NCBI GenBank assembly: GCA_018831195.1
Contig: JAHJDP010000096.1
Span: forward strand, 1 to 47,182
Source: Candidatus Eisenbacteria bacterium
GTDB lineage: Bacteria > Eisenbacteria > RBG-16-71-46 > CAIMUX01 > JAHJDP01
Direction: 5' to 3'
DNA: 47,182 bases
In this document: positions 416 through 29,491 of the stretch, in pieces
Layout of the letters: each line of letters begins with the position of its first letter
How positions within the stretch are numbered: the stretch's first letter is position 1
Translations under genes and position numbers: made by a program
Notes under the pieces: generated by a model
Database searches by the model: none
Told to the model about the DNA's origin: nothing
The model's input: only the letters and a program-made list of their open reading frames with translations

Positions 416-1753
416 ATGAGGACTGAAGCTGACGCCTGCCTGCGCAGGGATCTAAGATACGTCTACGGCGACGGGGTCACCTACAGCTTGATGCTGGGGC
501 TGGGGGAGACCTATGTGCCGGCCTTCGCCCTAGCCATCGGCATGAGCGAGGTCGCGGCCGGATGGATCGTCGCCATTCCGATGCTGGCCGGCGCCCTGCT
601 GCAGCTCGTCTCGCCGCTGGCCGTGCGGCGCCTGCGATCACACAAGCGCTGGGTCGTCATCTGCGCCTCACTGCAGGCGGCGAGCTTCCTCGGCTTTTTC
701 ATCGCCGCCGTCGCCGGCCGGATTCCCGACGCGCTGCTTTTCCTGATCGCCGCGCTCTACTGGGGCACCAACCTCGGGGCGGGGCCGGCCTGGAACACCT
801 GGGTGGAAACGCTGGTGCCGAGGACGATCCGGGCGCGCTACTTCGCGGTGCGCGGGCGGAGCTGCCAGGCGGCGGCCCTGCTGGGAACGGTGGGAGCGGG
901 GCTGGCGTTGCATCTGGGGGCCTCGATTGAACTGACGGTCTTCGCGGTCTTGTTCGCGCTGGCCGGATTGAGCCGGGGCGCGTCGACCTGGTTTCTGGCG
1001 CGGCAGAGCGAGCCGTATCCGATGCCGCATCATCAGCGGGATGTGCGCCTCGCTGATCTCATCCGCCGGATGCGGCATGGCGCCGACGGCCGGCTGCTGG
1101 TCTACCTGCTGGCCCTGCAAACCGCCGTGCAGATCGCGGGGCCCTTCTTCACGCCGTATATGCTCGGGGAGCTGCACTTCTCGTATCTGCGCTTCCTGAC
1201 CATTGTCGCCACGGCCTTCATCGCCAAGATGGCTGCCTATCCGTATATGGGAAACCTGGCGCGCCGCTGGGGGAGCCAGAAGCTGCTGCTTGTCTGCGGC
1301 GCGGGCATTGTTCCGCTCTCCGCGCTTTGGATCTTTTCGCACAATCTCGTCTATCTGCTGTGCGTGCAGGTCGTGGGCGGGATCATCTGGAGCGGTTATG
1401 AGCTAGCCGTCTTCCTGCTCTTCTTCGAGCGCATCGATCATTCCGAGCGGACCAGTCTCCTCACCCTTTTCAATCTCACCAACGCCGCCGCCCTTGTCGG
1501 CGGAGCCTTGATCGGCGGATTGTTGCTCGGCGCGCTCGGCAGCACGGCCGCGGCCTATCACAAGATCTTCGGCCTGTCGGGGATCGCGCGGATTTTGACG
1601 CTGGTGCTGTTGATGCGCCTGCGGGTTTCGGGGCCGCTGGTATCCGCCGCATCGATCCCGGCGCGCACCGTCGCGCTGCGGCCGAACACGGGCGCGCTGC
1701 AGCATCCGCTGGTGGGTGGGATGGGGGGTGATGAGGATGCGGAGATAGACTGA
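416..1753 (+). CDS. major facilitator superfamily (MFS) transporter
   Basis: This 445-residue, highly hydrophobic protein has about 12 predicted membrane segments in two halves separated by a basic cytoplasmic loop around residues 195-225 (rich in H, R and D). Length and layout are those of an MFS permease. A short basic stretch after the second membrane segment (R-R-L-R-S-H-K-R) sits where the MFS A-motif loop lies. The substrate cannot be told; the general look is closest to uncharacterised efflux-type MFS proteins. The start ATG at 416 is followed by a charged 20-residue N-terminus. The C-terminal tail of about 40 residues is not hydrophobic and ends in an acidic run. It stands alone, with no co-directional partner close by. 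Confidence 0.8.
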   Translation: MRTEADACLRRDLRYVYGDGVTYSLMLGLGETYVPAFALAIGMSEVAAGWIVAIPMLAGALLQLVSPLAVRRLRSHKRWVVICASLQAASFLGFFIAAVAGRIPDALLFLIAALYWGTNLGAGPAWNTWVETLVPRTIRARYFAVRGRSCQAAALLGTVGAGLALHLGASIELTVFAVLFALAGLSRGASTWFLARQSEPYPMPHHQRDVRLADLIRRMRHGADGRLLVYLLALQTAVQIAGPFFTPYMLGELHFSYLRFLTIVATAFIAKMAAYPYMGNLARRWGSQKLLLVCGAGIVPLSALWIFSHNLVYLLCVQVVGGIIWSGYELAVFLLFFERIDHSERTSLLTLFNLTNAAALVGGALIGGLLLGALGSTAAAYHKIFGLSGIARILTLVLLMRLRVSGPLVSAASIPARTVALRPNTGALQHPLVGGMGGDEDAEID

Positions 1754-2126
1754 GCAGCCATGGCAGCACCTGCCAACCTGAAAATCTAACGCATCGTTCA
1801 CTTTGTCGCTCCGTTCTCGCTCTTCGTGGGATGATTTTCCCAAATTTTGTCCAACTTCCTCTCCCAAGAATATTTCCCCTCAAGCGACACGGAGGCTTGG
1901 CCGTGCGTACCCACTGAAGGACGACAGCCGCAGCTTGGGTTTCCAGCATGGAGATTTATCGGTTGGGGCGCGATCCGCGTAATTTTCGCGTAATGCACCT
2001 TTGCCATCATTGCTTTGTATCCTGAGGCGAATCCGGTGAGGCCGAGGGAGATTGGTGGCCAATTCACAATGCTGCCGGGAGCGTTGTTGGATAATGCATC
2101 AACATGCGTTGAATAGGAGGAGATCC
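1754..2126. other. intergenic region, no gene recognised
   Basis: This stretch of 373 bases lies between the MFS gene and the FG-GAP repeat gene. Several overlapping short frames exist on the minus strand, but none has a protein-like composition or a ribosome-binding site, and I found no homology I can name. No convincing terminator hairpin follows the MFS stop codon. The only supported element is the strong ribosome-binding site at its right end. Confidence 0.5.
2115..2120 (+). promoter_or_regulatory. ribosome-binding site AGGAGG that fixes the start at 2127
   Basis: A perfect AGGAGG lies six bases before ATG 2127, which begins a clean signal peptide. The frame is open upstream to a GTG at 2052, but that start has no ribosome-binding site and would bury the signal peptide 25 residues inside the protein. 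Confidence 0.8.
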
Positions 2127-5100
2127 ATGAAACTCTGCCTGGGGTTACTGTTTTTGATGATTTTGGTATCCGCGCCTCACGTGACCGGGCTGATCGGTCC
2201 AGACGAGGCCGCAGTCAGGAGCGCGGGGGCGGACGAGGCCTGGTGGCGGACCGTGTGCGCGAACATCGAGCGGGAGGAATATCACGCGTCGGTGAACGCC
2301 GCGGGGCTTCAGGCTCCGAACCGGTCGCAGAACCTGAGGACATACTTTCATAACGATCGGATTGAGCTCGTGCCGCGAATGGGGGAGAGCGAACCGGCTT
2401 GGCGATTCAGCTGGCGATCGACGCACTGGGGCCGGGCGGATCGACCCGTGGAGGTGTCATCGGAGATGGTCGAGCCGCAGGCGAACGGAACGCGAGTGAT
2501 CTATCGGCGTCAAGGGCTCGACGAGTGGTACGAAAACGGAAAACAGGGTCTGGAACAGGGTTTCACAATTCATGCACGTCCCGGCGGGAATGGCGACCTC
2601 GTGATCCGCGGGGAGTGGGGCGGGAACCTCCACGCCGCTCCCGCGGCCGAGGACGGCGCGATTGACTTTCTCGACGAGAACAGCGCGCGGGCACTGCGTT
2701 ACGGAGGATTGCATGTGACGGATGCGGCCGGCGCCACGCTGCCCTCGCGGCTTGTCCATTCGGGGCGCCAGCTCGCGATTCTGATCACCGATGAGGAGGC
2801 GGACTATCCGCTGACCGTGGATCCTCTGCTCTCGACCCCGTCCTGGACGGCGGAGGGAAACCAGGCGAGCTGTCGTTTCGGCTATTCGGTCGGGACGGCC
2901 GGCGATGTGAACGGCGACGGCTACTCGGATGTGATCGTCGGCGCCTACGGATACGACAACGGCCAGATCAATGAGGGGCGGGCGTTTGTCTATCACGGAT
3001 CCGCCGGCGGTCTGGCCACGAGCCCGGCGTGGATGGGGGAAAGCAACCAGCAGAGCGCTGCATTTGCGGAACATGTAGGAACGGCCGGCGACGTGAACGG
3101 CGACGGCTACGGGGATGTCATTATCGGCGCGGCTCCCTACGACAACGGCCAAACCGATGAGGGGCGGGCGTTTGTCTATCACGGATCGGCTGGCGGTCTG
3201 GCCACGAGCCCGGCATGGACTGGGGAGAGCAACCAAGAAAACGCCCGCTACGGCACCTCTATCGGGACAGCTGGGGATGTCAATGGAGACGGGTATGGGG
3301 ACATCATCGTCGGCGCTCCTTGGTACGCCAATGGGCAGAACACGGAGGGACGGGCCTATGTGTACCATGGCTCTCCTGGGGGTCTCGCCGCGAGCGCGGC
3401 GTGGATGGGGGAGTACAACCAGGCGGCCGCCCATTTCGGCATGTCGGTCGGGACGGCCGGCGATGTGAACGGTGACGGCTATGCGGACGTTATCGTCGGC
3501 GCCCCTTTGTACGAGAACGGCCAGGGCGATGAGGGAAGGGTATTCGTGTACCATGGCTCTTCGGCAGGTTTGGCCGCGAGTCCGGCGTGGACGGCGGAGA
3601 GCGACCAGGCGGGCGCGCAGTGCGGCTTCTCCGTCGGGACCGCCGGCGATGTGAACGGTGACGGTTACGCGGATGTCATCGTCAGTGCCGTCTTCTACAA
3701 CAACGGCCAAGTTGCGGAAGGACGCGCGTATGTTTACCACGGCTCCTTGGAGGGCCTGACCGCGAACGCGGCATGGACAGCTGAGAGCGACCAGACGGGT
3801 GCGCATTTCGGCAACTCTGTGGGAACGGCCGGTGATGTGAATGGAGACGGATATGCCGATGTCATCGTCGGCGCCGACTCCTACGACAACGGCCAGACCG
3901 ATGAGGGGCGGGCGTACGTGTACTGCGGATCGTCTGGGGGCTTGGCCGCAGGCGCAGTGTGGACGGCGGAAGGTGACCAGGCGACGGCGCTTTACGGCCA
4001 ATCTGTCGGAACGGCCGGTGATGTGAACGGTGATGGCTACTCCGACGTCATCGTTGGTGCCGTCTTCTACGATAGCGACCTAAGCGACGAGGGGCGTGCG
4101 TACGTTTACCACGGATCGGCCGGGGGCCTTGCCGCGAATGCAGGGTGGACGGCCGAGAGTGACCATGCCGGCGCCTCCTTCGGTCGTTCTGTCGCAACAG
4201 CCGGCGATGTAAACGGTGATGGTTACTCGGATGTGATTGTCGGCGCGGAATGGTTCGACAACGGCGAGGAGAACGAGGGGCGCGCCTATGTCTACCACGG
4301 ATTGCCGGGAGGCCTCGCCACAAGCGCGTCTTGGACGGCGGATGGTGATCAGGCCGGCGCGTTTCTAGGCTGCTCCGTCGGTACGGCCGGCGATGTGAAC
4401 GGTGATGGTTACGCGGATGTGATTGTCGGCGCGAAAGGCTATGACAACGGCGAGGAGGACGAGGGTCGCGCCACCGTTTACAACGGATCGCTGGATGGCC
4501 TGGCCGCGAGCGCCGCGTGGATGGCGGATGGCGGCCAAGCCGGCGCGCTTCTGGGTTGCTCCGTCGGTACGGCCGGCGACGTCAACGGTGACGGCTTTGC
4601 GGATGTCCTCATCGGCGCGGAAGGTTATGACAACGGCGAGGAGAACGAGGGTCGCGTCTACCTGTACCGCGGAACACAGGCTGGTCTTGTCGCCGGCGTG
4701 TCGTGGATGGCGGAAGGGGAACAGGTGAACGCCTCTTTCGGCCATTCTGTCGCAACGGCCGGCGATGTGAACGGTGACGGTTACTCGGATATCATTGTCG
4801 GTGCTGAGTTGTACGATAACGGCGAGGTCGACGAGGGCCGCGCCTATGTATACCACGGCTCCTTCAGTGGACCTTCCGCCAGCGCCGCATGGACGGCGGA
4901 GAGCGACCAGGCGGATGCGCGCCTTGGCAGTTCCGCCGGTACCGCCGGCGACGTGAACGGCGACGGCTACTCTGACGTCATCATCGGCGCGGCCGGCTAC
5001 GACAACGGCCAGACCGACGAGGGGCGTGCGTTTGTATACCATGGTTCCGCCGGGGGCCTCGGTATGGCTCCCGCATGGATGGCTGAGAGCGACCAGGACT

Positions 5101-11972: not shown

Positions 11973-12335
11973 ATGCTCCTGATACTATCAAGCGGGCCGG
12001 GCCGCTCCAGCGAGGTGGTCTCAGATGGCCAGCGCGCTGAGATCGCGGCCGTCATGAATGCCCTGGCCGCCAATGGACAGTTCTCGGGGACGGTGCTCGT
12101 GTCGGTGGGAGGTGAGCCGATCACTACTTTGCTTGTCTATCAATTGGAGGAACCCGGCAAGCTGACTCTCGAAGACAAGTTGTCCGACTGGCTGCAGGAA
12201 TTCCCAACAAAAAATATGGCTACTTCCTGCTGGGTTTGATCATTGAACGCGCCGGCGGCGCCAGCTATGCCGAACAGCTTCAGGATCGGATTTGCGCACC
12301 GGCCGGCATGACGCATACGCGGGGCGACGATAACG
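11973..12335 (+). pseudogene. degraded class C beta-lactamase-like serine hydrolase
   Basis: Pieces of a serine hydrolase (beta-lactamase/PBP-like family) are visible in order but in two frames. Frame A has the family opening (N-G-Q-F-S-G-T-V-L-V), then jumps directly into L-L-V-Y-Q-L-E-E-x-G-K-L-x-L-E-D-K-L, the segment that normally follows the active-site S-x-x-K. The stretch carrying S-x-x-K is missing. After an A6 run (12209-12214), homology continues in another frame with K-Y-G-Y-F-L-L-G-L-I-I-E-R and P-A-G-M-T-H-T. Thus there are at least one in-frame loss, a second loss before the Y-x-N/K-Y-G motif, and a frameshift. It cannot make an active enzyme. Confidence 0.7.
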
Positions 12336-14096: not shown

Positions 14097-15683
14097 ATGA
14101 GAATAACGACCGCGGGCCTCGTAAACACTCCCTTTGATCAGCCCATCACCTATCACTACCTGCCCGCGTATGGTTACAGCGCATACATTTCTGGGATGGG
14201 GCCGGTTCTGAAAATCGAGACCGATGACTCACTCGATCAGTCGGCTTCTGATACGGTCCTGCAATTTAAGATCAGCGAGATCGGCTATTCCACATCCACC
14301 AGCTGGAAGAACGGCCTTCTGGGCCTGGACGTGTTCCCGGAACTCCCCGAAGGCCTCGATGTCTATCTCGAACGCCTCACAACCCCGACCCGCGCCACGC
14401 TAGAACTCCAATCCGTCAATAAAACCTTCGTTAAACTCCCCATCACCCTTATCCCATGCTGGCATTGGCCGCACAGCCGCGAGGCGAGAATCTCCGTGGC
14501 GGCGCATGTGCTGCCCGGGGAGGAGATGATCCAGCGCATCGCAAATGCGGCATCCGCCACATACACAAAAAAGACGGGATCCTCGCCACTCTCAGATCTT
14601 ATCGGCGCCGGCAAGCCGGACGCCGCTCGCACAAGCATGAAAGCCGTCTACGACTGGCTCATTGAAAACACATCGATCGCCTACGACGCGCCGCGGCCGG
14701 TCTTCGATGAATGGTGCAAGGCGAGCTATCAGGAGATCCGTCCGCCGCACCGGCTGATCACTCATCCGTGGGAGTTGCAAGGGGCCGCGAATTGCCTCGA
14801 CATGACAGTGTTTCTCGCATCCGTCCTTGAAGCGCTGGGGCTGAAGCCGCTGGTATTCTTCACCGGCGGCATCGAAGAGGCGCCGAACCACGGCTTCCTC
14901 GGATGCTGGCGTGAGCGCACGCATCGCTTCCGGCCGATTCTCACCGGCCATCGCGCTTTGAAAGAGAGGGTGGAGCGGGGCGAGATTCTCGTGCTGGAAT
15001 CGACGGGTGTCTGCCAGGGGCCGCGCCGCCTCGATTTTGAGGCGGCACAAAAGAGGTCGCAGGATTTCTTTAACAAGACGGATGAGATTCACGCCGTTGA
15101 CATCGCCGCCGCGCGGCCGCCGTACGGCGCGGTGCGACCCATGCTGATTCCTGACGAACCGGTGGTGCGGCAGGCTTATGGGCAGGCGCGGGATTTGGCG
15201 GATGAGTTTGCGCTGAAACATGGGGAGACGATCCACATCCTGTACGGTCTCTGCGCGGCGAAGGGGGAGATCACGAGCTGGCTTATGGCATCGTGCGGCA
15301 GCTCGGCGGAAAACGTGCGGGAGATCATCGCGAGACATTTGCCACGGGGCAAGAGTGGGGGTAAAGGAGCGGTTTCCCGTAAAGACACGCGCAATGCCGA
15401 GATCTGCCGCAACACGGCGCGCTCCAATGCGCGCATCGCGGGGAGCTCCGTCGTGCGCGAGTCGGATCTGCTCTGGGCGATCCTCGAAAATCCCAGCCGC
15501 AATGTGGGGCGGATTCTTGAAGCGGCGGGATGCCCGCACCTGGTGGCGATTGAGACATTGCACCGGCGCTTCCGGCGTCCGGGCGAGATGACCGAGTCGC
15601 GGACACTGCGGTCGGCCACGGACCTGGGCCGTGAGTCGGAGCAGGATCCGGGCCCTGAGGCGGATCAGGAGGAGCGTCGATGA
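14097..15683 (+). CDS. transglutaminase-like cysteine-protease-fold protein fused to two Clp-N-like repeats
   Basis: The protein has 528 residues and is cytoplasmic (no signal peptide). Residues about 110-350 match the module I know from the N-terminal part of DUF4011-type helicase proteins: a strand-rich start, a V-L-P-x-E segment, a long helix (residues 175-195), then N-C-L-D-M-T-V-F (C233), N-H-G-F-L-G-C-W (H265), L-V-L-E-S-T (E301) and a closing A-V-D-I-A-A-A-R. C233/H265 with an acidic third residue fit a papain/transglutaminase-like catalytic set. Residues 355-415 and 432-492 look like two Clp N-terminal repeats, which bind peptides or adaptors in ClpA/B/C; no AAA+ domain follows. The tail is acidic. 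This architecture is unfamiliar to me. The gene starts 41 bases after the radical-SAM gene. Function unknown; protein processing is the best guess. Confidence 0.6.
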   Translation: MRITTAGLVNTPFDQPITYHYLPAYGYSAYISGMGPVLKIETDDSLDQSASDTVLQFKISEIGYSTSTSWKNGLLGLDVFPELPEGLDVYLERLTTPTRATLELQSVNKTFVKLPITLIPCWHWPHSREARISVAAHVLPGEEMIQRIANAASATYTKKTGSSPLSDLIGAGKPDAARTSMKAVYDWLIENTSIAYDAPRPVFDEWCKASYQEIRPPHRLITHPWELQGAANCLDMTVFLASVLEALGLKPLVFFTGGIEEAPNHGFLGCWRERTHRFRPILTGHRALKERVERGEILVLESTGVCQGPRRLDFEAAQKRSQDFFNKTDEIHAVDIAAARPPYGAVRPMLIPDEPVVRQAYGQARDLADEFALKHGETIHILYGLCAAKGEITSWLMASCGSSAENVREIIARHLPRGKSGGKGAVSRKDTRNAEICRNTARSNARIAGSSVVRESDLLWAILENPSRNVGRILEAAGCPHLVAIETLHRRFRRPGEMTESRTLRSATDLGRESEQDPGPEADQEERR

Positions 15684-15744
15684 TGAAATCCGGTCCGCAT
15701 TGCCCCGGTCGGTTATGCCGTCGCAATTGGGGCCGGCCTCAAAT

Positions 15745-18024
15745 TCAAACCCCGGGATCTGTATTTTGTGGTGCGCTGTTTTTGTTCTCTGTTTCAGGTG
15801 ACACCGCCGCGACCTCATCCCACGTCTGTACAAGTTGACCGACAAACAGGCTCGAATTCTTTACAAAAAAGACGGTACGAAGTGGTTCAGAAAATTCCTC
15901 CAAATATGTCGCATATTTAATAATATCTTTGTCGTTTTCCGGAGGGTCCAATCCTAGAAAGACGATATCGGCCTCGGCGCTTTTCTCGCTGATGATTTCT
16001 TTAATGGTCCTGTCCTTTTCGGCAATCATTACCTGTACTTCCGCCACGATCCGAATAGCGGGGATGAGGGATTCAAGGTAATGTTCGGTATTCGCCTTCA
16101 TATGCTCATTTGAAGCCACGCTGAGAATCACGATTTGCGAGCTGCGCCACTCCGGATTGCGTGTAATGAGATGCGCCAGCAACAGCATGAGATCGCTGTT
16201 GTGCTTTAGACCGCCCCACCAAACATGAATAATGCGTTCTTCATTTTCCCGCGGAATGAGGCCGGGCTGAATCCGACCGATAATGACCGACTTGCCGAGT
16301 TTCTCGAGTCGGTTGACGACACGCAGAAAATCGACCCTTTTCTCCGGATTCCGTGACCAGCCCAGCAGAATGGTATTGCTGTTGAGGCCGGCGATGCCAT
16401 TCGCCTGCGAAACATCAGTGATTCCGGAAATGACATCGGGAACAATGTCCACTTCACCGAATGCGACAAGACGCTCGCGTTTTAGAGTTCGACTGATCTT
16501 TTCTTCTTTTTCGCGGAAGTCAATCTTTTCCATGATGAGATCGCCGACGACAAGCTCGCAAACGGTGACCACGCCGCGGCCCTGGCTGAACCAGGTGCCG
16601 AAGCGGATAAGATCGAGGTGCCGTTCGGCGCTGTCGACAAAGGCCAAGACATGCGGCCTCCAATTGCGGGCGGTCATCGGGCGGCGGGAAAGACGTACGA
16701 GCGACCAGCGGATGAGGGCTTCATAAATGTCCCGCCTCACGTCACCCCATCCGGCTTGACGTTCGCGGCGGGCCAAGAAGGCCCAGAGGAGAATTTCAAT
16801 AATAATCGCCGCGACGGCGGCCTTGGCATTGATAAGGAACATCACGGCAAAGCAGCCTACCGCGCCAAGGAGGCAAAAAGCCCAATGAACGTGCAGACGC
16901 GGGCGCCATGAAGGATCGCCCGAAATCGATTCAACGGCGGCGACAAGGTTCACCATCCCATAGACGGTCAGAAAGAACATCGTCACGACGGGAGCGACCG
17001 CGTTGAGATCGCCGAGCATGACCGCGGCAAGCGCGATGATGATCGATACGATAAGTCCAACAATCGGCTCGGACCCTCCTTTGGATCCTCGTCCGAGAAA
17101 TGACAAGACCAATCCGTCGGAAGCCATGGCCTGCAAGGTGCGGGGAGCGCCGAGTATTGAGCCGACGGCGGATGAAAATATGGCGCCCCACAAACCGGGA
17201 AGAATCAGGATAGCGCCCAAGGGGGCTATTTTCGTCCAGATCAGGGGCTCCTGCCGCAGGGCTTCAAACGATGCGCCTTTGATCAATATGAAAGGGATCA
17301 ACAAATAGACGATGAATCCGACCAAGGTTGCGCCGATGGCGCCGCGCGGAATCGATTTAATGGGATCTCTGAGATCGCCGGAAAGTCCCAAACCGGCCAT
17401 AATGCCGGTCACCGCCGGGAAGAATACGGCGAAGACGACCCAGAAATCAGAGCGAGGCGCCGGCAGATCGCTCACCGCGGTCACGCCGGGTCCGAAAAGG
17501 ACTCCGAACACCAAGGCGCCGAGGGATAGGGCGATGAAAAAAAGGATCGGCGTCTGCACGCTTAGGGCCAAGCGCGCCCCGCGGTAGGCCAGAGCTCCGA
17601 CGGCGATCACGATAACAAATGCGGCTGGTTGAACAGGAACGTCGGGCCAAAGAATCCGCATCGATTCGGCCAAACCAAAGGCGTAAAGCGTCACGGAGAA
17701 TACTTGTGAGAGGAAGAGGGGAAGTCCGATGGCGCCGCCGAATTCCAGGCCGAGGCTTCTGGATATAATGTAATAGGCGCCGCCGCCGCCCAATCGGATA
17801 TTGGTCGCAATGGCGGAAAATGACAATGTTGTTATGAGTGTAATACCGTTGGCGAGGGCGACGATGATGAGGGTTTTGACAAGACCTACCTGTCCCGTCA
17901 CCCAGCCGAATCGAAGATACATGATCACGCCGAGAATAGTGAGAATTGTCGGCGTGAAGACTCCCAGGAAAGTGCCTAATTTCCCGTCGCTCGGAACCTG
18001 GTTTTTTTTGCTTCTTCCAAACAT
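15745..18024 (-). CDS. cation-chloride-cotransporter-like (SLC12/APC superfamily) permease
   Basis: The protein has 759 residues. Membrane part: residues about 15-430 with some 12 hydrophobic segments. It opens with L-G-T-F-L-G-V-F-x-P-T-I-L-x-I-L-G-V-I-M-Y-L-R, the signature start of the SLC12 family, and has G-G-G-A-Y-Y-I-I-S-R-S-L-G and G-D-L-R-D-P in expected places. A soluble C-terminal half of about 310 residues resembles the regulatory domain of bacterial and eukaryotic Na/K/Cl cotransporters. Bacterial members probably move amino acids, polyamines or ions; the substrate is not predictable. The start is the ATG preceded six bases by GGGGAG; a GTG six codons upstream is an alternative. 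It is transcribed away from the sigma factor gene. Confidence 0.8.
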   Translation of the reverse strand: MFGRSKKNQVPSDGKLGTFLGVFTPTILTILGVIMYLRFGWVTGQVGLVKTLIIVALANGITLITTLSFSAIATNIRLGGGGAYYIISRSLGLEFGGAIGLPLFLSQVFSVTLYAFGLAESMRILWPDVPVQPAAFVIVIAVGALAYRGARLALSVQTPILFFIALSLGALVFGVLFGPGVTAVSDLPAPRSDFWVVFAVFFPAVTGIMAGLGLSGDLRDPIKSIPRGAIGATLVGFIVYLLIPFILIKGASFEALRQEPLIWTKIAPLGAILILPGLWGAIFSSAVGSILGAPRTLQAMASDGLVLSFLGRGSKGGSEPIVGLIVSIIIALAAVMLGDLNAVAPVVTMFFLTVYGMVNLVAAVESISGDPSWRPRLHVHWAFCLLGAVGCFAVMFLINAKAAVAAIIIEILLWAFLARRERQAGWGDVRRDIYEALIRWSLVRLSRRPMTARNWRPHVLAFVDSAERHLDLIRFGTWFSQGRGVVTVCELVVGDLIMEKIDFREKEEKISRTLKRERLVAFGEVDIVPDVISGITDVSQANGIAGLNSNTILLGWSRNPEKRVDFLRVVNRLEKLGKSVIIGRIQPGLIPRENEERIIHVWWGGLKHNSDLMLLLAHLITRNPEWRSSQIVILSVASNEHMKANTEHYLESLIPAIRIVAEVQVMIAEKDRTIKEIISEKSAEADIVFLGLDPPENDKDIIKYATYLEEFSEPLRTVFFVKNSSLFVGQLVQTWDEVAAVSPETENKNSAPQNTDPGV

Positions 18025-18030
18025 ACACAT

Positions 18031-18036
18031 CTCCCC
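18031..18036 (-). promoter_or_regulatory. ribosome-binding site GGGGAG selecting the start at 18024
   Basis: On the minus strand, GGGGAG stands six bases before ATG 18024. The upstream GTG (18042) would place this motif inside the coding region. Confidence 0.6.
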
Positions 18037-18114
18037 AAACACTGTTTAGAGCAGACTAAATAGGCTGAGGCTGGAATTGCAAGCATGGCAGACTGCCAAC
18101 TGAAGATTATTGCC

Positions 18115-19351: not shown

Positions 19352-20143
19352 ATGTTGCATCCTGAGCAGGAGCGCCTCACGGCGTTTGTGGCCGGGGAGC
19401 TCGGCGACGAAGAGGCGATGACCATCTACGCCCATCTCGCCCAATGCGATCCCTGCACCCAGCGTTTCCTCGCCCTCCGGAAGATCCACTGCGACTTCGA
19501 CAATTCATGGGATGACTTTCTCGCCGAGTTCCAGCTGCGACTGGAAGCATTTGCCGCCGAATCTCAGGCGGATGGGTCATATGCCCCAGCCGTGGTGATT
19601 CGCGGGTTTCTGAACGGCTCCAGGCGGCTGGCCACGGCGGCGATGGTTCGAGTCGCGGAAAAATTCGCGGATGTGACGGATGCCGGCCGTGTGCTCGAGG
19701 CTGTTTTCGTGCCGACCTATACCGGGGTCGGCGACGCTAAAACCGATCCCGACGCGCGCCGGCTGGCCGAGGAGGCCTCCGAGAAATGCGGTCAGGCCGA
19801 TGACAAGGAGGCGCTGAAGAAACTGGCGAAAATCTCCGAGACCGACCCGATCGTCAGCGAGACGGCCAAGCTCGATCTAATCTCAGGCGAGAATGTTGTA
19901 GGGGAGGTGATCGTTCAATCCCGGAGCCGGCTGGTGTCGGTGCTGGTTTATCCCGCTCTGCTGGGGACTTCACAGGCCACCGCCGTGCTGCGGCTGCTGG
20001 ATGCTGCGGTTGATGGCGCGGGCGCGCCACGCCGGCTGCGGCTGGAGGCCGTCGAAGGCGCGGCCTACTGGCTCGCCGAATTCGAGAATGTGCCGGATGG
20101 GCCGTTTTCAGTCGGATTGGAGATAGCGCGGCCGACGAGCTAA
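19352..20143 (+). CDS. zinc-finger anti-sigma-like protein
   Basis: The protein has 263 residues. The N-terminus carries H-L-A-Q-C-D-P-C (H27, C31, C34), the H-x3-C-x2-C zinc site of anti-sigma (zf-HC2/ZAS) domains that clamp ECF sigma factors. The rest (residues 60-263) has no membrane segment: a helical middle rich in A, D and K, then a strand-rich end. It therefore looks like a soluble anti-sigma factor, possibly sensing a cytoplasmic signal through its C-terminal part, which I do not recognise. It is preceded by an excellent ribosome-binding site (AAGGAGG, 19341-19347) and by motif copy A. Position directly after the sigma gene supports the pairing; binding is inferred. Confidence 0.65.
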   Translation: MLHPEQERLTAFVAGELGDEEAMTIYAHLAQCDPCTQRFLALRKIHCDFDNSWDDFLAEFQLRLEAFAAESQADGSYAPAVVIRGFLNGSRRLATAAMVRVAEKFADVTDAGRVLEAVFVPTYTGVGDAKTDPDARRLAEEASEKCGQADDKEALKKLAKISETDPIVSETAKLDLISGENVVGEVIVQSRSRLVSVLVYPALLGTSQATAVLRLLDAAVDGAGAPRRLRLEAVEGAAYWLAEFENVPDGPFSVGLEIARPTS

Positions 20144-26731: not shown

Positions 26732-29491
26732 TTAGTTCATTAAGGAATCAATCTCGGCCTGATACCGCGCCGCTTCCTCCGGCTTTTCCCATGCCGTGTA
26801 GTGCCGGACCATCCGGTCGAGCGCGTCGGCTTTTCGGGCGGCCGCAATGGTTGAATCGAGGATTGGTTGGCGGCTGCGGGTAAAAAGTGAATCAGCCTCT
26901 TCATGGCGCCGCTGCGCCGCCAGGCAGCTGGCCAAGATGTTATCGGCGAGATAGGGGATCCAGCTTTTTTCAGGGAGTTTCGCGCGTAAGGAGTCTGCAA
27001 TGTCGCGCAACATCGACTCGCACCCATCTCCTTCACCACGATCGATGGCATAGACGGCATGTTCCATCCGCGTGAAGATCGTGTTGATCGCATCATTCCC
27101 GAGAAGTATTTCATTCAATCGAACGGCCTCAGCCAACGCAGCTTCGCCTTCTTGTAGTTTCCCCTCGGCCTTTAATACCAGCGATAGATTTCCCATGAGC
27201 GATGCAATATGCAGGTGCTCATCCCCAAAATGTTCGCGCCAAATAACTTCAGCCCTCTTGTACATATCCTCCGAATCCTGGTATTTCCCTGCTTTAAAGA
27301 GGAATAATGCCAGGTTGTTAAGGCTTGCCGCAATGGAGACGTGCCCCTCTTCTCCATACAATTGAATCCGCCGGTCCAAGGCCTGTCGAAATACCGATTC
27401 GGCTTCGTCTCTCTTGTTCTGGCCGGAGAGGATGCTGCCCAAAATGTTAAGGAGCGCTGGGTAAGACTCGTGTTCTTCCCCCATGTGTTCACGCCACAGA
27501 TCGATCGCCTCCCGGGCCGTTGCCTCCGCCTCTTCATACTTCTCCTGAGAACTAAGGAAATAGGCCAGATTAATAAGGTTTGTCGCCAAAGATGGATGGT
27601 TATCACCATGGTGCTTTCTTTGGATTTCCAGCGCGGCCCGCATCCGCTTTTCCGCCTGGCTGGGATGTCCCTGGCCCCCCAGAAAGATCGCATAGCTTTC
27701 GAGGAGCGGCACCATATCAAGGTGCTCCTTGCCGAGCAGTTTTTCCTGCATGGCAAGGGCCTCAAGATATAATTGTTCCGCCTCCTCGTATTTCCCGCGC
27801 CCATCCAAGACGCTGGCTAGAAAGCACAGATGAGTCGCGATCGTCGGATGTTCCTCGCCATAATGAGCGCGCTCGATTTCAAGGACCTGCCGCGCCAGGA
27901 CCTCAGCGCTGTCTTCCTTCGACTGCGCCATGCGCAGCCTGGCCAGCCTGAAAAGGCTCATGGCGACATCGGGATGTGTTTCGCCGAGTATCTCCCGCTG
28001 GACGGCATAAGCCCCTTCAAGATGGGGGGCCGCTTCTTCGATGAATCCCAGTGCGAAATAAGTATCCCCAATGGTGCTTTGAACCGCGGCTCTTACTTCC
28101 GGTTGATCAGCCAAGCCCTCATCGATCGTCTTGGCCGCCTCATCGAGGACCTCTCGAACCGTGACATCTTTGCCCATGCCGGAGGGATTGACCGAACCCA
28201 ACATATCCCGAAGGAAGGTATTGATCTGATCGGCCTTCTGAGCTTCCGCTTCCGCCCGCGCCCGCAGGACCCGCTGTTGGCCGAACAGTACCGACATTGT
28301 GATCCCAAAAACGATGGAGAGAATGAAGAGGGTGGCAGCGAATGCGAAGGGTCCCCGGTGACGAGAAACCAGCTTCCGGAATTGATAAACCGCGCTGGGG
28401 GGCGAAGCGAGGATCGGTTGATTTGCAAGATGTCGCTCGATATCGTCGACGAGGGCCGAGACCGACTGATACCGATCCGCCGGATTTTTCTCCAGCGCTT
28501 TGAGGGTGATAGTTTCGAGGTCACCGCGTAGCAATTTGAATGAACCGCTTGGCTTTGCCGGATCCTCTTCACAGATGACGCGAATCGCCTCATGGATCAT
28601 CGCCTTGTGAACGTCGTAGGGCCGCTGCCCGGTGAGCATTTCGTAAAGGATCACGCCGAGCGAATAGACATCGCTCCTCAGATCAATCGCATCAGGATTC
28701 CCGCGGGCCTGCTCGGGGCTCATATAGGCCAGCGTCCCGCGGATCTTTCCCACTTCGGAGACCATGGTTGTCAAGCTGACATCCGCATCGGTCAGGCGGG
28801 CGAGGCCGAAGTCGAGGATCTTCACCTGCGCGTCACGCCGCGAGGCGCCCGCGTCTTCACCATCCGGCGGAATGACAAATATATTCGAGGGCTTCAGATC
28901 GCGGTGGATGACGCTGCGCTGATGCGCATAGGCTATCGCACGGCAGATCTGCAGGAAGAGCGCGAGGCGTTCGCGGATCTGATGGCGGGTGGGCGAATCT
29001 CCCAGGGGCCGCGATTGCAAATAGGCGTCGAGCGGGACGCCGGTGATCAGCTCCATCGCGAAGTAATGTTGTCCGTTTTCGGTTTGCCCGGCGTCGTGAA
29101 TCGCGGCGATGTTCGGGTGCTTCAGGAGCGCCAGGGCCTGCGCCTCGCGCTGGAAGAGTTTCACATGGTGTTCATCGACCACCGCGCCGCCGCGGATCAC
29201 CTTGAGCGCCACCCGGCGCCGGGGATTCTGCTGTTCGGCCTCATAGACCACGCCCATACCGCCGGCGCCGATTCTGCGGATGATGCGATAGCCGGCGATG
29301 ACGCCGTTGGCACCATCCGAAGGCGAAATGCCGGATGGCGTGCTGCCGGATGGTGGCTGCGCGGAGCCGATGAAGAGCGATTCGGACTCGGGGAACTCGG
29401 ATAGCGACGGGTCCCGCTCGGGATGCTCTGGGTTCGAAGGATTAATTTTGGGATCGTCCTCGGGATTCTGCGGCGGCCTTTCTATCGGCAT
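26732..29491 (-). CDS. membrane-anchored Ser/Thr protein kinase (Hanks/PknB type) with TPR sensor domain
   Basis: The protein has 919 residues. It has a proline- and acid-rich N-terminus (1-65), then a kinase domain (about 68-355) with all key residues: glycine loop G-A-G-G-M-G (75-80), V-A-L-K (K97), H-R-D-L-K-P-S-N (D198, N203), D-F-G (227-229) and S-P-E-Q. One membrane segment (about 382-404) follows, then about ten tetratricopeptide repeats of the TPR_10/12 kind (A-x-x-I-x-x-x-x-G-x-E/D-H-P periodicity of about 42 residues) on the far side. It should phosphorylate cytoplasmic Ser/Thr targets in response to protein contacts of the TPR part. Candidate targets are the nearby sigma/anti-sigma pair, by analogy only. 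The gene lies between motif copies C and B. GAGGAG precedes the ATG by eight bases. Confidence 0.9.
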   Translation of the reverse strand: MPIERPPQNPEDDPKINPSNPEHPERDPSLSEFPESESLFIGSAQPPSGSTPSGISPSDGANGVIAGYRIIRRIGAGGMGVVYEAEQQNPRRRVALKVIRGGAVVDEHHVKLFQREAQALALLKHPNIAAIHDAGQTENGQHYFAMELITGVPLDAYLQSRPLGDSPTRHQIRERLALFLQICRAIAYAHQRSVIHRDLKPSNIFVIPPDGEDAGASRRDAQVKILDFGLARLTDADVSLTTMVSEVGKIRGTLAYMSPEQARGNPDAIDLRSDVYSLGVILYEMLTGQRPYDVHKAMIHEAIRVICEEDPAKPSGSFKLLRGDLETITLKALEKNPADRYQSVSALVDDIERHLANQPILASPPSAVYQFRKLVSRHRGPFAFAATLFILSIVFGITMSVLFGQQRVLRARAEAEAQKADQINTFLRDMLGSVNPSGMGKDVTVREVLDEAAKTIDEGLADQPEVRAAVQSTIGDTYFALGFIEEAAPHLEGAYAVQREILGETHPDVAMSLFRLARLRMAQSKEDSAEVLARQVLEIERAHYGEEHPTIATHLCFLASVLDGRGKYEEAEQLYLEALAMQEKLLGKEHLDMVPLLESYAIFLGGQGHPSQAEKRMRAALEIQRKHHGDNHPSLATNLINLAYFLSSQEKYEEAEATAREAIDLWREHMGEEHESYPALLNILGSILSGQNKRDEAESVFRQALDRRIQLYGEEGHVSIAASLNNLALFLFKAGKYQDSEDMYKRAEVIWREHFGDEHLHIASLMGNLSLVLKAEGKLQEGEAALAEAVRLNEILLGNDAINTIFTRMEHAVYAIDRGEGDGCESMLRDIADSLRAKLPEKSWIPYLADNILASCLAAQRRHEEADSLFTRSRQPILDSTIAAARKADALDRMVRHYTAWEKPEEAARYQAEIDSLMN

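Follow-up and report, generated by a model that had tools for sequence, protein, structure and literature searches.

The window, i.e., the whole stretch of 47,182 nucleotides that was analysed, comes from an uncultured bacterium that its nearest named relatives place in Candidatus Eisenbacteria, and it contains a plus-strand gene whose product joins a transglutaminase-like (TG) half to a double Clp-N domain (approximately residues 355–492); the protein is called TG-ClpN below. The reading frame given by the first-pass annotation was recovered unchanged (Table 1), and the three putative catalytic residues occurred in the motifs that it had named, with C233 in NCLDMT, H265 in NHGFLGCW, and E301 in LVLEST. 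A Pfam search of the window protein returned zero domains. A 417-aa ORF runs antisense to the gene (14592-15845, minus strand) and is probably just an incidental effect of base composition and reading frame. Further upstream, an 88-aa ORF (11973-12239) joins, as judged by eye, the start of a beta-lactamase-type serine hydrolase to a later part, and it is probably a deletion remnant.

Table 1. Coordinates of the TG-ClpN gene, its predicted domains and residues, and the neighbouring genes in the window.
Feature	Coordinates	Strand	Basis or remark
TG-ClpN ORF	14097..15683	+	528 aa, ATG start
N-terminal beta-rich region, ~residues 10-115	14124..14441	+	Precedes the TG core in ProA helicases; limits approximate
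Transglutaminase-like thiol peptidase domain (predicted), ~residues 120-345	14454..15131	+	NF058533 1.8e-31; AF2 pLDDT 81.9; TG-fold PDB matches
C233 codon, predicted nucleophile	14793..14795	+	Conserved in 8/9 homologues; N-terminus of helix in model
H265 codon, predicted catalytic histidine	14889..14891	+	Conserved in 8/9 homologues; start of strand in model
E301 codon, predicted third catalytic residue	14997..14999	+	E in 8/9, D in 1/9 homologues; end of next strand in model
Clp-N repeat 1, residues 355-415	15159..15341	+	hhalign, family profile, Foldseek
Clp-N repeat 2, residues 432-492	15390..15572	+	hhalign, family profile, Foldseek
SLC12-type transporter, between TG-ClpN and sigma gene	15745..18042	-	Pfam AA_permease/SLC12
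Atypical long ECF-like sigma factor (putative), 338 aa	18260..19276	+	Pfam Sigma70_r2 2.2e-5; full-length family found only with TG-ClpN
Soluble zf-HC2 anti-sigma-like protein, conserved C-terminal part	19352..20143	+	Pfam zf-HC2 3.3e-8
Ser/Thr kinase-TPR protein	26732..29491	-	Pfam Pkinase 1.1e-43

The predicted sigma factor consists of region 2 and a conserved PHQ...ADW C-terminal part or insert. A Pfam search of this protein for sigma-70 region 4 gave no match; an ADWxxxVKxRxR stretch resembles a recognition helix, by eye only. Its assignment as a putative sigma factor rests on region 2 and the conserved surroundings. The zinc-finger protein of the window and most of its relatives carry the HxxxCxxC ligands and a conserved C-terminus, and the ligands are lost in both copies of genome G002. 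The order seen here, with a soluble zinc-finger protein encoded after sigma, matches that of ECF sigma factors and their anti-sigma factors, and the two were read as such a pair, with putative binding. The SLC12-type transporter stands outside the conserved unit and was absent from the other loci read. The kinase-TPR protein is a possible partner of the TG-ClpN unit, as kinases lie close to TG-ClpN in other loci; for the TG-ClpN of the window, the FHA domain and the neighbouring kinase are missing or distant.

Inside the first half, the NCBIfam model NF058533 (anti-phage ProA, 1903 aa) matched residues 92-349 of the window protein. The match scored 108.5 bits against a cut-off of 1500 bits and covered only model positions 70-312, the helicase being absent, so by its sequence the window protein is not classed as a ProA or DUF4011-type helicase. 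All relatives with an intact TG domain also matched the ProA model, mostly from position 1-3 to ~313-338, compared with a start at position 70 in the window protein. This indicates that the first half of TG-ClpN, with the beta-rich region before it, corresponds to the N-terminal module of the helicases. The link to DUF4011-type helicases that the first-pass annotation had given for this module held up, since the full-length helicase L069, which matched ProA over 816 positions, bears the same N-terminal module. Two other architectures with a TG domain were also seen. In genome G367 (L072, ~1430-3660; L094, 8167-10962), a TG-like domain is combined with an NB-ARC-like ATPase and apparent TPR repeats in a conflict-type architecture. 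Genome G003 has a ProA-type TG protein without Clp-N, and an AAA+ ATPase gene directly after it (L007, 1450-2871 and 170-1453).

The AF2 model of residues 91-350, built with a 4-sequence alignment, reached a pTM of 0.82 (pLDDT in Table 1). In this model C233 opens a helix, H265 opens the next strand, and E301 closes the strand after that. The top PDB fold matches were mostly of the TG fold (PNGase, 3kd4, RavJ, 3isr, TG2, Rad4/XPC, and menin), and 3kd4 and 3isr among them are putative proteases. The individual E-values were marginal (0.01 and worse), so the TG fold is supported by the combination of the recurring family, the ProA homology, and the geometry of the triad. The acidic residue was kept in all nine homologues; the one exception for Cys and His was L005, the second copy in genome G002, with R and G at these positions. 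In triad order and modelled fold, TG-ClpN is a member of the transglutaminase-like thiol peptidase superfamily with predicted activity.

The TG superfamily is chemically diverse, which leaves some room for the domain to carry out deamidation, cross-linking, or PNGase-like amide hydrolysis on a partner protein, and PNGase and tissue transglutaminase do stand among the closest folds besides the putative proteases. We regard such chemistry as improbable. The helicase-fused module has been named a transglutaminase-like peptidase, although that name is itself a prediction (PMC3710099).

The second half was recognised as Clp-N by several methods. A profile of the family's C-terminal halves matched ClpC N-domains in the PDB at 2.9e-12 and also recovered genuine Clp ATPase genes across the phylum. 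The hhalign comparison with the N-domains of the host's ClpC, ClpB, and ClpV gave a probability of 93.6 (E 2e-7) over 130 columns including both repeats. Foldseek of the full-length model found the ClpC NTD (1.5e-6, prob 1.00); in that AF2 model, made from three sequences, the TG half was poor (pLDDT < 50), and it was used for Clp-N only. The relative L093 scored 28.0 against Pfam Clp-N (PF02861; cut-off 20.7). The repeat limits proposed earlier, 355-415 and 432-492, agreed with the profile, hhalign, and Foldseek alignments, and the half-by-half profile check returned the ProA module (NF058533) for the first half and Clp-N (ClpC N-domains) for the second. The AAA+ domain was indeed missing, as had been claimed: the profile evidence in this direction was a weak match of NCBIfam ClpB (0.028) confined to residues 358-479. 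By sequence, TG-ClpN is therefore not a Clp/Hsp100 unfoldase, having no AAA+ ATPase domain.

Clp-N might itself be the working part, binding ClpC adaptors or tagged clients and competing with or feeding the ClpC, ClpB, or ClpV of the host, with the TG domain in a regulatory or structural role. Mycobacterial ClpC2 is a precedent: this Clp-N protein without AAA+ works as a sponge and controls its own transcription (PMC10030653). The host moreover encodes three Clp ATPases with N-domains (ClpC, ClpB, and ClpV), and one copy in G002 is a dead enzyme that keeps its Clp-N. However, the triad is intact in 8/9 homologues, contrary to a purely structural TG domain, and we consider this role rather improbable. 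Competition with ClpC-type unfoldases in particular, as suggested initially, would have the ClpC2 precedent and the three Clp ATPases of the host behind it, and nothing found here specifically favours it.

The survey of domain architecture in other genomes showed that the fusion recurs. The eight genomes that carried TG-ClpN are all draft assemblies; six belong to Eisenbacteria and two to another small phylum that was represented by three genomes. The architecture was identical in all eight. Around the gene, a conserved unit was seen, composed of the sigma factor, the zinc-finger anti-sigma-like protein, and (FHA)-TG-ClpN, often with a Ser/Thr kinase. Both G333 operons and G046 have sigma, zinc finger, and TG-ClpN side by side, and TG-ClpN lay within 2-7 kb of the sigma and zinc-finger genes in the window, G003, and G002.

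The G333 operons run sigma, zinc finger, TG-ClpN (one with FHA), then kinase, and the G046 locus (L050) runs sigma, zinc finger, FHA-TG-ClpN. In G003 (L045) the order was sigma, zinc finger, TPR/CsgG, outer-membrane-like protein, Ser/Thr kinase, CsgG-like, TG-ClpN. The G002 locus (L049) has TG-ClpN, zinc-finger-like, TPR/CsgG, kinase, and CsgG-like genes on one strand; the opposite strand carries sigma and the second TG-ClpN. Its neighbouring TG-ClpN genes (L005, 988-2310; L008, 1414-2988) comprise one intact copy and one without the catalytic Cys and His. One contig of G005 holds kinase, CsgG-like, double-FHA protein, PP2C phosphatase, and FHA-TG-ClpN, the phosphatase adjoining TG-ClpN, and the terminal 4 kb of another contig contains sigma and zinc finger. 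In G001 the contigs are likewise broken: sigma and zinc finger occupy a 3.8-kb contig, and a TG-ClpN fragment stands at the edge of another. G385 shows zinc finger, TG-ClpN, and kinase at a contig edge. In total, a Ser/Thr kinase was near TG-ClpN in G003, G002, G005, G333 (both copies), and G385, and the FHA domain was fused to it in L003, L004, and L093.

The sigma factor and TG-ClpN occurred together. When three of these sigma factors were used to build a model, matches beyond sigma region 2 among 47 genomes of the Eisenbacteria phylum were confined to the six with TG-ClpN; outside the three that supplied the model, the carriers G001, G005, and G046 were the only genomes so matched. A second model of eight sequences gave full-length matches (at least 295 bits) in exactly the seven genomes with TG-ClpN among 385, all others being at or below 75 bits and restricted to the first half. 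These seven genomes, which are partly related, also supplied the seeds. As the carriers are few, partly related, and the source of the seeds, the result says that the pair goes together, and it should not be counted as so many independent cases.

An additional survey, covering 386 genomes around G333, yielded no extra carrier. The close-relative scan of genome contigs with the TG-ClpN protein alone found none, and the three-row alignment scan of genome contigs recovered L045-L047. Scans of viral contigs gave no relative. Plasmid relatives were rejected as TG-ClpN, covering no more than 73% of the protein and being DUF3320 helicases where annotated. A link to type VI secretion, which has FHA, kinase, phosphatase, and ClpV alike, was likewise set aside, as VipB was present in 3/6 TG-ClpN genomes and 7/41 others. 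On contig C100 of genome G000 (L067; 24400-26681, 73599-74498), a cluster of type VI secretion genes includes ClpV and three VipB matches, of which two are divergent.

The protein had been described as stand-alone, and this description did not survive the survey: TG-ClpN is one part of the conserved sigma/zinc-finger/TG-ClpN unit, often with kinase and FHA. The other element of that description, a protease that would recruit its targets through Clp-N, is still plausible. Because a predicted sigma factor and its putative zinc-binding inhibitor accompany it wherever it was found, TG-ClpN probably belongs to an undescribed response circuit rather than being a lone enzyme. Our literature search for the combination of TG, Clp-N, and sigma/anti-sigma found no paper.

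We consider it quite possible, though a little short of an even chance, that TG-ClpN serves as the protease in a signalling unit built around a dedicated sigma/anti-sigma pair. The constant third gene of the unit encodes a predicted thiol peptidase, with an FHA domain and a nearby kinase in several cases, and is best read as the step from signal to sigma release. Control of ECF sigma factors is known to include soluble anti-sigma factors, Ser/Thr kinases, and proteolysis (PMC8103513). The best reading is thus a signal-controlled cytosolic thiol peptidase in a sigma/anti-sigma switch, where the reaction, the substrate, and the function of Clp-N are our inferences; the anti-sigma protein would be the most likely substrate. 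In the resting cell, the zinc-finger protein would hold the sigma factor. A signal would switch on the TG thiol peptidase; in many loci this signal would come from a kinase and be read by the FHA domain. The client, either the anti-sigma protein or the complex containing it, would be docked by Clp-N or handed by it to ClpC. Cleavage would free the sigma factor for transcription of its regulon, and the scheme would be a cytosolic counterpart of the regulated proteolysis of membrane anti-sigma factors.

Several observations count against the switch. In G002 the zinc fingers lack HxxxCxxC and one TG-ClpN lacks Cys and His, so the scheme is open to partial loss. The window itself lacks FHA and a neighbouring kinase or has them only at a distance, and a search upstream of the units gave no common promoter motif, the top count being no better than in shuffles.

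The main rival places TG-ClpN at the output, as a thiol-peptidase effector (stress clearance, anti-invader, or suicidal protease) that sigma activation would cause to be made or released and whose Clp-N would pick the targets. This is a reasonable reading in view of ProA and the TG-bearing conflict proteins, if an unlikely one. The TG module is common to ProA, named an anti-phage protein by NCBIfam, and the relative L072 fuses it to an NB-ARC-like ATPase and TPRs; the literature also has TG-like peptidases as components of conflict proteins (PMC3710099, PMC7159879), which counts in the same direction. However, the effector domain was never exchanged between units, the eight genomes having one TG-ClpN architecture, and such a constant partner in each unit speaks more for an integral component than for an effector that can be swapped. 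Toxin-like variability was absent as well. PADLOC models gave no match to TG-ClpN, the sigma factor, or the zinc-finger protein, and no obvious defence island was seen among the genes read.

The usual view of soluble anti-sigma factors is that they respond by changing conformation; the best-known cases of proteolysis concern the membrane-anchored ones. If the switch reading is true, a sigma factor would here be activated by another route, through a dedicated cytosolic thiol peptidase that carries Clp-N and is encoded in the sigma/anti-sigma operon, and the ProA/DUF4011 TG-like module would gain a small two- or three-gene setting for assaying activity and client. The bolder proposal of a new signalling class is one we hold to be doubtful; here a cytosolic TG-like protease with the module of ProA, aimed by Clp-N and FHA-gated in many cases, would cleave a soluble zinc-finger anti-sigma factor and so release a dedicated sigma factor.

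Compared with known systems, TG-ClpN shares with the giant ProA/DUF4011-DUF3320 helicases (NF058533) the beta-rich region and the TG-like core with C, H, and E/D, its relatives matching model positions 1 to ~313 of 1903. Unlike them it has no helicase, DUF4011, or nuclease, carries Clp-N instead, and is coupled to sigma and anti-sigma genes; a DUF4011 search of the host genome gave no match. Both repeats resemble the Clp-N (PF02861) of ClpC and ClpB in sequence and fold, whereas the AAA+ ATPase domains are missing and a TG domain is fused. Mycobacterial ClpC2 also has Clp-N but no AAA+ and is likewise tied to transcriptional control, but it lacks a protease domain and acts via its own DNA binding (PMC10030653). 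The sigma and zinc-finger genes follow the ECF sigma and soluble ZAS anti-sigma pattern of a sigma-70 region 2 gene and then a soluble HxxxCxxC zf-HC2 protein. They differ in the long sigma factor (338 aa) with its conserved PHQ...ADW insert or C-terminal part, in the long conserved C-terminus of the zinc-finger protein, and in having TG-ClpN as the third gene. The vWA/FtsH ternary conflict systems also use ClpN repeats as a module in non-AAA+ proteins, and TG-like peptidase and FHA domains are found in systems related to them (PMC7159879); the vWA, MoxR, and FtsH of the ternary systems are absent here.
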